NCBI RefSeq assembly: GCF_000760515.2
Contig: NW_013546634.1
Span: 1 to 63,074 of the forward strand
Direction: 5' to 3'
DNA: 63,074 nucleotides
Source: Mitosporidium daphniae
Taxonomy: Eukaryota > Microsporidia
In this document: piece after piece, positions 3,654 to 43,278 of the stretch
Layout: the number at the start of each line of letters is the position of its first letter
Numbering within the stretch: position 1 is the stretch's first letter
The notes under the pieces: generated by a model
What the model was told of the DNA's origin: nothing
The model's database searches: none
What the model saw: the letters and a program-made list of their open reading frames with translations, nothing else
Made by a program: the position numbers and the translations under genes

Positions 3654-6600
3654 ATGACCTCTATTGGCGATTGTTTGCTTTATCTTCCGACTGATCTTTT
3701 GATAGAATCGCCGCATAGCGTTCAGGAGCTCAAGTATTTTCTTGAACGGGGCAGTGAGACCGAAAAAATCAAAGCTCTACAAGATATAATTTACGTTTTA
3801 GCCAATGAATCCTCCAGTGCCTCAATCAGCTCAGAAGTCCTCATGCACATTATCAGATTTGTTCTTCCTTCTCAGAAAAACAAGCAAATTAAGAAGCTGC
3901 TGTTACTATATTTTGAGTTATGCCCAAAACTGGGGGCCGACGGAAAACTGCTTCAAGAAATGATACTGGTCTGTAACGCATTGAGAAATGATCTGCAACA
4001 TCCCAATGAATTCGTTCGTGGCTTTACTTTGAGGTTTGTTGCAAAGATCAAGGAGCAAGAAATATTGGAGCCTCTTCTTCAATCCATTCGTTCGAACCTG
4101 GTACGTCTTCAATTGCATTTACATGCTAGTCGCACCCGCATCCATACGTCAGGAGAAATGCACTTGTCGCAATAGCTTCCATTTCACTCAATTTGGAAAC
4201 TTTATTTCCAGACTCTACAGCATTGCTGAGGGAGGCCTTTTTTAATGTATGATTCTTTGCTGGTCCCACTATAGGAGTCTGATCGTCAATGCAAGCGGAT
4301 TTCTTTCATGTGTTTGAGCAAACTAGACTGGGGCGCTTCTTTTGAGCTGCTCAACTTTCTCTTGCCCACATTTGAATCTATTGATGAATACATGCAGCTT
4401 GCTGTGATCCACTTTGTAAATTTGAAACCGCTCGATAATTACTCGAAGGAAGAAAAGGTTTTTGAGCTTTTTTATGGCTAGGTCATATTTTCGGAATGTC
4501 TCATTTTGGTGCTCGAGTCTCCGACCGTAACTCCGACGATAAAGTTTGCCGCCTGCGATGTCTATTTGAGGCTTGCTTTCCCCAATCAGACGATGACGGC
4601 ACAGAGGGTGTTTCCAACCATAATTGATTTGATCCTAAAAGAATCCGATAATAACATCAAGCTAATTATTTTGGGAAAGCTTTCGTACGTTCTTTCCGTG
4701 GCAAGCAATACGCTGGATAGCCAGCTTTTAGATTTGTGGAAAGTGTTTTCGAGGTATTTGCTTGCTCGCTTACGCGCATTAGTTCTGATATTGAAATTAA
4801 AAGAAAGTCGCTGTTTTTGGTGCTTGACCACTGCACAGAGTCGACTGCAACAACCCTTTCAGACTATTTGGGCCAGGAAATATTGCAGCTTTCGCTTGCG
4901 CCATCTTCGGCTTCAAGTGATGATTTGAAGGTCTTGGTTTCTTCACTTTCAAAGTGTGCTCTTTACTCGCAATCAATTGTGAGCAAGGCGATCCCCATTT
5001 TTAGCCGTTTGGTGGTAGATAGACTTGGACCAAGCCCGTCCGCGGGAGCATGCTCAACTCAACTTAATAGCTACCCTTTGGAGTGCGTCGAGTTTTTCAA
5101 GTATCGTCACTTGTTTTATTTTCAGAATCGCCTTGATGAAATATCCGGCCTTGAATGGCATACTGATCCCTGAAATACTTTCTGTCATGCCCCAGATAAA
5201 GTCTGCAAAATGCTTCAAGGCCATGATGTGGCTGGTTGGAGAATATGGTACTTTGCAATTTTTTTACCGCCCATCATAGGCACTAGCGCCGAGATTGACG
5301 CCATTTTCAAGGGGCTTTCCTCGTATCTCGACGAATTATCAGAGCTGATCTCATCAATACTTGTGGATATTAAAGAGGGTGACAACGATCTTCTCTCATC
5401 GAAAGTCTTTGAAACATTCAAAGCCAACAGCTGGAAGTTGCAGGTTTTCCTCGAAAATGGGTGTCTAGGTTCTTGCGCCGCCATTGCCTTTTCAACGCTA
5501 AAATTGCTCGCAAAGGCGAAGGCATGTGACACCGAGGTGCTTCAAGCCCGGGCCATTCTGATCGTCATTGATATGCTGAAGATATTGAAAAATGTCCTTT
5601 CCAACCAGTCTCTTTTTTTTCCATCGACCGAGCTCAGAATCAATTTCGATGCATTGGATAGGCTCTCTATGTGTCTGAAATTTTTGTCTGGATCTTCTGG
5701 CGATGATGGTGCCGCTACCTTATTATCGTCCATATTCACCGGCTCCAAGGAATATTCTGTGCGGCCGTCATCCTTTACCTCACCAGCCACTGAAGCAAAG
5801 GTTTGCTTATTTAACCAACGTTATTGTAGAAGGTCAAAGAGAATTGTTTCGAGTTTGCCAACATCCCTTCGTCGATGCTGCTGAAAGTTGAAAATTCCGC
5901 CTCATCCAGCTCGCGCTTGTCTTTGCATGGCAACAAAAAGAACATCCAGGAGGCGGAGCTGGCCAAGCTGTTCAATTCTGAAGCTTTAAGCATGCAGGAG
6001 TCTCATCGCATTACGAAGCTTGACAGCGTATTCCAATTTACAGGTCCGTTTTATCTGCCGATCGTTTATAGGCTTTTCGGACCCCATATATGCAGAGGCA
6101 TATGTTAGCTTTTCAGAGCTCGATGTTATGCTGGACATTCTGATCGTCAACCAAACCCCTGAGACGATCCAGTCAATTTGCTTGGAGTTCATTTCGGATT
6201 ACGGATGCGGTAGTTCTGGCTCGTCAAGTAGCAGCCAAAGGCTATTGTTGAAGCCGCTCCAGCCATCACTTCCGGCGTTTGGATTTACTAATGTCAAGGC
6301 CTCAATCAAGGTGCGCCGTGTCTATTAACGTCGGCATAGATACACAATGCCGAACTTGGGAGCATCTATGGATACCTCTCGTTTGACCACCATCCTTTTC
6401 TTTCGGTGTCGTATATTGCTTTCAACCCCATTTCCGTCGATATTCTGCACCTGATCACCCCCAACCCGAACATTTCTGATGAGGAGGTATTTTGAAAAGG
6501 GTACATTTTTCTTTCTCGTAGTTTGCCTCAAGCTGGAAGGTCTTAGAATGGGAGAACAAGGTTACCCTTAAGCCTTGCTATTCGTAAGCAGCTCCTTTTA

Positions 6601-40425: not shown

Positions 40426-42582
40426 TCACGATTTTTTCTTGTGCTGGTTGATGGCGAGAAATGCCTCCTGTGGCACCTCCACATCGCCAATCATCTTGAG
40501 TTTTTTCTTTCCCTCTTTTTGGTGTTCCAAAAGCTTCATCCGACGAGTTGGATCTCCGCCATACTGCGGGATTAGTAAAAATAACAAATACCAATTTGGC
40601 GGTCACATCCTTTCTATATGCCTTGACATTATCTCTTGATATCACGTGCCCCCCTACAGCTGCTTGTAGGGCCACTTCGAATTGCTGCCTTGGAATCAGT
40701 TCCTTTAGTGTTGAAATCAAAGTTTTTCCGATCCCTTGTATTTTCGATCGGTGGCATATCAAAGAAAGGTCAGGGACAACTTTTCTGTTCACAAGACAGC
40801 TAATCTTGACCAGGTCGCTTTCTTCATATCCATCCTCCTCATAATCAAAGCTAAAGCGTAAAGGTCATTCATAATATACGTAACAAAACCGGACGAGATA
40901 CTTTGCACAGTGTCGAAGAAATCAACTATTATTTCTGCTAATGGCAATCGAAAGCCGATCAGCGTTCTGTTCGAATCGACCATGGACATTTGTTGGTGGA
41001 CACCTCGACGCCCCAGCAACAGGGAAAGAATAGGCCCAATTGCCTCTTGTTGTACAATTAATGTAAGACGAACCATCGGCTCCTCGATGCTCAAAATATC
41101 GGGAGATTCCTCGATTCCGGGAAATTCAGAGGTCGAAGATATATATTGAGTCCCCCTGGAGCCTTTGTAATTTATCTGAATCAACGGAAACTCCATGACG
41201 TACCTTATATAGCACGGTGGGCGAAGTAAAAATTACTTCGGCCCCAAATTCCTGCAGTAGTCGCTGCTGGAATACATCCATATGCAGGGATCCTAAAAAC
41301 CCAAGTCTCCATCCTCTTCCAAGAGCGTCACTGGTGTATAAAATACAAAATCTTACCTTGCATCGCAGCAAATCGATATGCTAGAATCATTCAAAAGCAG
41401 CTTTTCGATCGAATCTTTAAGCATATTATATTCGGACGGCTCCTGTGGATATAGTCCAGCGAAAACCTTGCTCTTGGCCTTTTGAAACCCCGGCAAGGGC
41501 GTGATTAGCTTTGCAGAATGGGGATGGAAAATGGTATCTCCAATGAAGCATATCTCGCGGGGGTCCTTTATTCCTAGACATACATATCCGACTTGACCGG
41601 TACTCAACTTCTTTCCTGAGACAAGTTGAGGGGTTATAAATCCAAGCTCCAACACTTCGAATTTCTTTCCATTGGAAGAAAATTGAATCTGTTCGCCTGG
41701 GCTGTTAGCAAAGGCTCGATACTTACCTTTTTTTAAAGAACCATCGACAACAAATATATGACAAACAACGCCCTTATAAGAGTCATATTTTGAATCAAAA
41801 AGAAGTGCTCTTAGCGGTGCATCTGGATTTCCGGGAGGACAAAAGTAAGATATAGCCCTTTACCATGGTACATCGGTTAGGATCCGATCTATACAAGTTA
41901 TCACATTTTCCCCTGTCTTTGCTGAAAGGGGGATGATGGAGTTCCGAGGAATTTCAAAATTCGCCTCAATCTGGTCACCAATAGACGCCAGATTAGCTGT
42001 TGGCAAATCGGTCTTACAGAAAGAAGCGCTCAAATTTACCTTATTAGCAATTGGAATAACACAAAGGCCCTGGCTGAAAGCCAGCCAGAAATTGGCAACC
42101 GTCTGCGCCTGTACGCCCTGCGATGCATCAACAAGGAGCAATGCTCCTTGGCAGGCTGCTATGGCACGAGAAACTTCATATGAGAAATCAATATGTCCAG
42201 GGGTGTCAATAAGATTAAGAAGATATGGCACGTCGTTTTCACCGGACGAACGATATATAAATGAAGCAGTCTAAGGGTTAGGGGTGAAAAAACCTGGGCT
42301 TTAACGGTAATCCCACGTTGCTTTTCAACTAGCAGTGTATCCAAAGAGGGAGTTGAGAGGCCATATTGGTTTGTCTCTACAAAGTAAAATAGAGCCAAAA
42401 CCTCCGTTACAAATCTCTAATAGTCTGTCGGCAAGCGTAGATTTTCCATGGTCAACATGCGCGATAATGCAAAAATTTCGGATTCTTTCAATGGGAAATT
42501 CCATCGATGCCAATATTGAGGCCGAAGCGGTACAAAATTTCCTGAACGGCCAACCATGTCGAATGAGATTTTTAAATTTCAT
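40426..42582 (-). CDS. GUF1: Mitochondrial translation GTPase GUF1 (LepA/EF4)
   Basis: EF4-type GTPase that back-translocates stalled mitochondrial ribosomes. Seven introns, 657 residues. Basic presequence ([13 protein letters not shown]), then G1 AHVDHGKS (about 41-48), RGITVKAQ, G3 DTPGHIDF and G4 ANKVNL, EF4-specific [20 protein letters not shown]-like [25 protein letters not shown] and the C-terminal YGGD and [16 protein letters not shown] blocks. Six introns are canonical (23-29 nt). The third, at 41840-41863, holds an in-frame stop and keeps frame and homology only if it ends in TG rather than AG. Its start codon is 14 bp from that of divergent TAD2. The gene implies a mitochondrion that still makes protein. 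Confidence 0.95.
41840..41863 (-). other. Putative non-canonical GT-TG intron in GUF1
   Basis: In coding orientation the 24-nt segment begins GTAAAGGG and ends CTTACTTTTG. It contains the only in-frame stop (TAA) between two well-conserved GUF1 blocks (ILTDVP and [15 protein letters not shown]). Removing it restores the expected sequence; no AG is available at a suitable place. Confidence 0.6.
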
Positions 42583-42596
42583 TAAAATTTTTTAAA

Positions 42597-43211
42597 ATGG
42601 ATGTCAATGATGACGACGTAGAAATTATGTCCCATGCCTTTGCATTGGCCGAACAAGCATATGAAAATCTCGAGGTCCCTATTGGGTGTGTTATAGTATG
42701 TCCTGTAGCCAAATTTCCTTCCTTATTACCGTCCAACGGAAGGACCTTGGAGGCAGTATGCAAAAACACCCTTCTTATCATTGGAGCAGGCAGAAACAAC
42801 ACCATGGCATCATGTAACGCCACTCGCCATGCAGAAATTGAGGCTATTGATCAAATTACAAAAAGCTTCTGTGACACCATACCGTGGCACCAATGCTCTC
42901 TATATGTGACCGTTGAGCCTTGTATTATGTGCATTGCTGCATTGACCGATTTGGGTAAATTTTGCCGACCTAACTCTTTATGCTTAGGGATTAAAGAAAT
43001 CATATTTGGATGCCATAATGACCGATTTGGAGGGTGTGGTTCTGCCATGAAGCTACCATCGAGTTATTCGGACAACCCCCCAATTACCATCAGACACGGG
43101 GTCTCAGCAAAGGAAGCCATAACACTTCTTCGCCGATTCTACATCAGGGAAAACAAAAGCGCCCCGAAACCAAGAAAAAAAGACAATAGAACACTTAAGG
43201 ACTGCTTCTAA
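42597..43211 (+). CDS. TAD2: tRNA-specific adenosine deaminase catalytic subunit
   Basis: Intronless, 204 residues. Converts A34 to inosine in the wobble position of cytosolic tRNAs, with Tad3. Cytidine-deaminase fold: zinc/catalytic HAE in ATRHAEIEAID and PCIMCIAAL (PCxxC), preceded by VPIGCVIV. The FGCHNDRFGGCGS motif is ADAT2-like. The basic tail (KPRKKDNRTL) fits RNA binding. Such activity is needed for the tRNA-Ser(AGA) of this window, whose A34 is a normal substrate. Start ATG 42597, head to head with GUF1. Confidence 0.93.
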   Translation: MDVNDDDVEIMSHAFALAEQAYENLEVPIGCVIVCPVAKFPSLLPSNGRTLEAVCKNTLLIIGAGRNNTMASCNATRHAEIEAIDQITKSFCDTIPWHQCSLYVTVEPCIMCIAALTDLGKFCRPNSLCLGIKEIIFGCHNDRFGGCGSAMKLPSSYSDNPPITIRHGVSAKEAITLLRRFYIRENKSAPKPRKKDNRTLKDCF

Positions 43212-43278
43212 CCCTAACCCAAAAGCAACTATTTTTATAGCTTCAATTTTGCCTTTATTTAGTAATGATGATGCGCCC

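Follow-up and report, generated by a model that had tools for sequence, protein, structure and literature searches.

Probable GT-TG ultrashort introns in the GUF1 and MCCC2 genes of Mitosporidium daphniae

A 24-nt segment of the GUF1 gene of Mitosporidium daphniae is probably an ordinary U2-type ultrashort intron with TG as its only usable 3' splice site. A second probable intron of this kind has been found in an unrelated gene, MCCC2 (methylcrotonoyl-CoA carboxylase beta). Both are taken here to be nuclear genes for proteins acting in mitochondria, and retention of either TG intron would bring a stop codon into frame. If this reading is true, stand-alone TG acceptors in introns of 24-27 nt would bear on how little 3' signal the spliceosome needs when the branch point lies nearly at the splice site, a question of minimal splicing signals that has been approached with yeast mutants.

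Results

The GUF1 gene

The window (the whole stretch of 63,074 nucleotides that was analyzed) is a nuclear contig (C57) of an M. daphniae assembly (4.66 Mb, 147 contigs), in which GUF1/LepA is encoded on the minus strand (Table 1). The assignment to M. daphniae comes from the best protein matches of GUF1 and MCCC2. The gene contains nine introns of 23-30 nt, eight of them GT-AG and one GT-TG, and their removal yields a full-length LepA/EF4 protein of the LepA/GUF1 (EF4) family, with the LepA_C domain (PF06421) matched in the exons. The best protein match was the deposited M. daphniae GUF1 (P0001), which corresponds to a shorter start at 42504 and is identical to the protein encoded here at every aligned residue. 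The gene is otherwise intact, with eight canonical introns, a frame open to the end and no other lesion.

An Rfam scan of the window revealed only two tRNAs over threshold, and a sub-threshold match over GUF1 was taken as chance. Only 14 bp (42583-42596) separate the GUF1 start codon (minus strand, 42582) from that of a divergent gene (plus strand, 42597), which presumably resembles tRNA adenosine deaminase 2. The telomere-repeat-like sequence GGGTTAGGGTTAG is located internally in the window (43208-43220, minus strand), past the 3' end of a permease-like gene.

Table 1. Features of the GUF1 gene in the window.
Feature	Position	Strand	Remarks
GUF1 gene (LepA/EF4-type mitochondrial GTPase), start to stop	40426..42582	-	nine introns
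Intron 1, GT-AG, 25 nt	42377..42401	-	
Intron 2, GT-AG, 23 nt	42271..42293	-	
Intron 3, GT-AG, 27 nt, stop-free	42013..42039	-	splits the NKxD GTP-binding motif
Intron 4 (putative), GT-TG, 24 nt, phase 2, in-frame TAA	41840..41863	-	
3' terminal dinucleotide TG of intron 4	41840..41841	-	AG in 433/437 called introns (323 kb)
Branch-like CTTAC in intron 4	41845..41849	-	best branch match; branch A 6 nt from 3' end
Intron 5, GT-AG, 30 nt, stop-free	41697..41726	-	found via P0001 and homolog comparison
Intron 6, GT-AG, 26 nt	41331..41356	-	
Intron 7, GT-AG, 28 nt	41176..41203	-	
Intron 8, GT-AG, 29 nt	40851..40879	-	
Intron 9, GT-AG, 28 nt	40564..40591	-	
Nearest AG downstream of intron 4, ends at +17	41823..41824	-	

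Homology evidence for a TG junction in GUF1

Intron 4 reads GTAAAGGGCTATATCTTACTTTTG (minus strand, 41863-41840; 24 nt, 0 mod 3), with TGG TAA spanning its 5' boundary and CTTAC upstream of its end. The initial annotation had described a 24-nt segment with an in-frame TAA, a GTAAAG donor and CTTAC between conserved GUF1 blocks, all of which was confirmed in the sequence, as conserved GUF1/LepA blocks flank the intron on both sides. It had also proposed that frame and homology are restored by a TTTTG end only, and this agrees with the length of the linker SAKTG-ALLFDS. Among the 119 best homologs listed besides M. daphniae, 84 matched both anchor motifs, and the linker is 37 residues long in all of them (84/84). 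GT-TG splicing was the only junction tested that yields this length; retention gives 45 residues with an in-frame stop, GT...GT 34 and the deposited model 21. On a profile built from 10 homologs, GT-TG also scored best (839.1 bits), followed by the retained form (825.1), the 33-nt GT...GT form (823.8), the deposited 72-nt intron (799.1) and a 41-nt AG form (274.2). The junction codon after TG splicing encodes Cys, which occupies the same place in 9 of the 84 homologs, and retention of the intron leads to an in-frame stop after residue 215.

The absence of any AG nearby, claimed in the same annotation, needs only a slight correction: the end of the closest AG lies 17 nt downstream, and its use with the same donor would give the 41-nt intron and an immediate stop. 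P0001 joins this AG to an upstream donor, forming a 72-nt intron (41823-41894) by which the GUF1 linker would be removed. This public M. daphniae model uses GT-AG, but it deletes 16 residues of a constant-length linker (21 vs 37), loses the conserved GQVGY strand, scores 40 bits lower on the profile and has an intron far longer than those called in this genome (99th percentile about 53 nt), and it is very improbable that it is correct. The gene finder labelled the site GT...GT (33 nt, from an upstream GT) when all non-AG dinucleotides had equal weights; however, this form and retention with stop readthrough both give the wrong linker length and lie 15 and 14 bits, respectively, below GT-TG on the family profile, so that use of another 3' dinucleotide or retention of the segment has a very low probability as well.

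Regarding motif strength, GUF1 intron 4 without its last two bases scores 12.8, which corresponds to the 73rd percentile of 433 GT-AG introns (323 kb) and exceeds seven of the eight other introns of the gene. Equally high scores occur by chance in 31 of 10,190 GT..TG stretches of 20-35 nt in predicted coding sequence, and homology must therefore decide. The case for intron 4 is made by the in-frame stop together with the exact homology, motif strength alone being no proof.

A second probable GT-TG intron in MCCC2

The second GT-TG intron is located in MCCC2 (G000:C69:39250-39276, minus strand) and is 27 nt long, GTAAGT...TTTACCTTTTG (in full, GTAAGTTCCATCCGCCTTTACCTTTTG). Its retention produces a stop at once, and the first AG beyond it is at +40. 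Splicing at TG gives MLPRDRIAALLDANSSFLEL, of 20 residues, and RIAALLDANSSFLELSPLAG, a gap-free match to homologs; the spacing from the LLPRDR-type anchor to FLEL, 20 residues here, is also 20 in 82/82 anchored homologs (of 119). With the 851-base MCCC2 locus, the gene finder found no gene when only AG was permitted (score 0) and scored 12.6 when TG was allowed; with 2,401 bases around the locus, the scores were 51.0 and 68.7, respectively. The MCCC2 model was made by hand and agrees with the deposited M. daphniae protein (P0121), the best protein match, at the introns compared. The hand-made protein ends early, because a C-terminal intron was left in and the last exon is lacking, and P0121 runs about 45 residues further; the TG site is unaffected by this. 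An automatic model differs from the hand-made one at two introns.

P0121 was modelled without the TG junction, by removing an upstream stretch and reading through the TG intron as ...VPSAFTFC/SSFLELS. The Cys in this stretch can be encoded only by TGY, and the DNA from which P0121 was translated therefore very probably carries the TG acceptor. In the motif SG[F/V]TDH, Phe is encoded in this assembly, whereas P0121 and 10 homologs (11 other rows) have Val; since P0121 differs from the DNA at this residue, it was apparently derived from a different set of sequence data, in which TG at the MCCC2 site is thus very probably present too.

These data bear on two explanations that the initial annotation had raised beside a TG acceptor, a base error and a pseudogenising mutation. 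In the first, the genome truly has AG at the GUF1 site, the intron is ordinary and the TG is a base-call or assembly error. In favour of this, the reading of the GUF1 base comes from a single assembly, P0001 bypasses the site and is unable to confirm it, and among the 437 called introns of the sample 433 end in AG. However, the same case occurs independently in MCCC2, and because TG is implied there by P0121 too, random base error becomes an unlikely explanation for MCCC2 and a less likely one for GUF1. In addition, the 72-nt detour of the deposited GUF1 model would be needless if AG were present, which is a weak point because the annotation taken as its source was fed UGP3 transcripts, as described in PMC12449221. 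An error at the GUF1 site is thus considered unlikely. In the second explanation, a recent mutation destroyed the GUF1 3' splice site, leaving the gene impaired or on its way to becoming a pseudogene, as the stop after residue 215 on retention might suggest. Nevertheless, GUF1 carries no other lesion, which speaks against an old pseudogene, its sequence and P0001 coincide at every aligned residue, and the MCCC2 pattern is apparently common to the deposited protein, as expected of a working intron; a lesion is accordingly judged quite unlikely. Both explanations are conceivable at GUF1 but are disfavoured by the MCCC2 case and the intact gene, and the reading of TG as an acceptor has gained support from a second such intron in an unrelated gene.

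Two further features of MCCC2 were observed. The Phe of SG[F/V]TDH could be a base error or a variant in this assembly, and intron 1 (G000:C69:39429-39483, in L030; 55 nt) consists of two canonical-looking introns of 26 and 29 nt placed end to end, possibly a twin intron with no exon between its halves.

Frequency of TG endings

An intron census was carried out on 323,074 bases (the window and 26 other 10-kb stretches, 7% of the assembly), to which 20 targeted sites were added. After replacing a first setting that over-called introns (5,531 in the last round), an unsupervised gene finder trained on these bases settled on a set of 153 genes with 430 GT-AG introns. With all endings competing, AG was found in 433 of 437 introns at a 0.5% prior and in 435 of 442 at a 2% prior; the non-AG calls (four, GUF1 among them, and seven, respectively) included none labelled TG. 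The 433 AG introns have a median length of 28 nt (5th-95th percentile, 23-36 nt) and end in TAG (347), CAG (48), AAG (36) or GAG (2).

When non-AG endings were allowed singly at equal weight in the 323 kb, 6 introns were gained with TG and 2-13 with each of the other 14 endings, and the score gain for TG (47.4) fell within the range of the others (12.0-63.3); TG thus showed no ab initio excess. At the GUF1 intron 4 site, an intron was called with 13 of the 15 non-AG endings, which indicates that the finder demands an intron there and that the choice of TG comes from homology. The GUF1 intron is the only homology-supported non-AG intron in the 323 kb, against 433 AG introns, and TG introns are rare in this genome. 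The MCCC2 case came from a TTG-directed search, which is not a bias-free comparison of TG with other endings, and therefore no preference for TG over other endings can be claimed.

That pattern search gave 167 matches genome-wide, and 20 of the 100 listed, chosen for strong donors and branches, were fetched. The MCCC2 locus (L030) alone gained from TG. At L042 the TG path was taken, with a score below that of AG only; a canonical AG follows closely at L031, L035 and L039, an overlapping AG intron is present at L047, and in the other 14 no TG was used by the gene finder. Among 11 intron calls read by eye, L003, L018 (7851), L024 (563), L027, L012 and L018 (5998) look like canonical introns with a nearby AG or like plain coding or start regions, a judgement based in part on the protein families concerned. 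Coding-potential windows alone were also discarded for intron finding, as AG showed no excess over other dinucleotides and stricter limits found nothing. Genome-wide motif counts compared with reversed controls were 167 vs 322 for GTAA..YTNAC..TTG, 165 vs 442 for the same pattern ending in TAG, 86 vs 351 for TGT and 165 vs 178 for GTAT..TTG; they were not used as evidence, as the TAG positive control lies below its reversed control and the T-rich tracts of ordinary introns match TTG. A long gene in L028 (G000:C147:10001-20000), which we take to resemble DOP1/Dopey, has an in-frame TAG at 3974-4001 (minus strand), where no canonical intron was found by the gene finder.

Splicing signals

Both introns carry U2-type donors, GTAAAG in GUF1 (according to a donor matrix from 430 introns) and GTAAGT in MCCC2 (read from the sequence), and U2-type branch matches, CTTAC 5 nt before the end of the GUF1 intron and TTTAC 6 nt before that of MCCC2; for 356 of the 430 introns, the best branch match is likewise located at 5-9 nt from the end. 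They share the ending YTTAC-(C)-TTTTG/T. The 3' end is TG in place of AG in both, so that their U2-type membership rests on the GT-TG subclass and not on GT-AG. U12-type introns have ATATCCTTT or GTATCCTTT donors and TTCCTTAAC-like branch sites; by eye, the donors (GTAAAG/GTAAGT) and branch matches (CTTAC/TTTAC) found here do not correspond to them.

Discussion

The 3' splice site of the GUF1 intron would be fixed mainly by a short branch-point distance, a T run and the terminal G. The branch A would lie 6 nt (GUF1) or 7 nt (MCCC2) short of the intron end, in keeping with the modelled distance of 6-10 nt in 356 of the 430 introns, and with the spacing, T run and terminal G in place, the A at position -2 may be dispensable, allowing exon ligation at TTTTG. 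In spliceosome structures, the -1 G contacts the first intron G and the -2 A contacts the branch A; a TG end would keep the former contact and lose the latter. The MCCC2 intron presumably works alike. Our proposal is that 3' splice site choice requires no more here than the spacing, the U tract and the terminal G, the role of distance being deduced from the sequence, from which we also infer the removal of both TG introns from the mRNA and its efficiency. A broader proposal, advanced tentatively and with less than even confidence, is that M. daphniae, an early-branching microsporidian, defines its 3' splice sites chiefly by means of a 6-10 nt branch ruler, a U tract and a final G, with the -2 A optional; there would be a small class of introns with TG as sole acceptor, and such a weak site, with an in-frame stop when retained, might serve to switch mitochondrial function on and off.

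GT-TG introns are already known elsewhere, mostly beside an AG, with reports from human (PMC2374985), Drosophila (PMC4528330), Ganoderma (PMC11590231) and Micromonas (PMC3879977), whereas the GUF1 and MCCC2 introns lack a usable AG. In the literature searched, no report of non-AG introns in Mitosporidium was found. Human TG 3' splice sites (GNAS type) have been described as alternative and dependent on an adjacent AG, constitutive ones not having been found in that study (Szafranski et al. 2007, PMC2374985, in the portions consulted). The introns described here resemble them in being U2-type, ending in TG and keeping the -1 G, but differ in their length of only 24-27 nt and, unlike the human TG-AG tandem acceptors, have no usable canonical AG nearby (GUF1, +17 with an immediate stop; MCCC2, +40). 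FlyBase 'Rule-Benders' include 23 annotated GT-TG introns of Drosophila, 19 of them with RNA-seq junction support; 22 of the 23 are reported to have a similar alternative splice (PMC4528330), whereas GUF1 and MCCC2 have no usable alternative. GT-TG ends have also been reported for the Micromonas introner elements IE-B and IE-D (PMC3879977), although IE-B and IE-D are inserted elements that form families of 25 and 6 members (100 to 6,494 nt) and the cases in M. daphniae are single ultrashort introns. The fungus Ganoderma lingzhi has 22 GT-TG introns (0.024%), for which no tie to tiny introns or branch spacing is drawn in the sections seen of PMC11590231.

With respect to annotation, errors are visible in both deposited gene models, P0001 and P0121, and it is of practical importance that the public protein models of two conserved M. 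daphniae genes are wrong around TG sites; the public annotation of this organism may hold more such errors. A 10-contig M. daphniae assembly of Swiss isolates has been described, for which ab initio prediction was guided by protein hints and by transcripts of Rozella and several microsporidia, M. daphniae UGP3 among them (PMC12449221, as far as consulted). P0001 and P0121 may come from that assembly, and ab initio annotation with such hints would explain models restricted to GT-AG.

According to the part of PMC10711555 consulted, U tracts lying upstream and contact with the first base of the intron promote the use of non-YAG sites in yeast, Prp18 and Slu7 are dispensable when the distance from the branch to the 3' splice site is short, and the shortest natural distance in budding yeast is 10 nt. 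BG sites (including UG) near the branch point, helped by U tracts, are used in prp18-delta cells, as proposed here for M. daphniae; however, prp18-delta is a relaxed-fidelity mutant (PMC10711555), and M. daphniae has a Prp18 domain. A search for the U2AF large subunit gave 30 matches, none over the cut-off and most confined to RRM-like stretches. U5 snRNA and the Slu7 and Prp18 domains were all found in the M. daphniae genome, and the presence of both domains gives no support to the idea that TG usage stems from a loss of the fidelity factor Prp18. The Prp18 domain was matched three times with equal score and length (G000:C56:50046-50384, C80:2158-2496 and C118:10369-10707), which may represent near-identical copies or redundant contigs.
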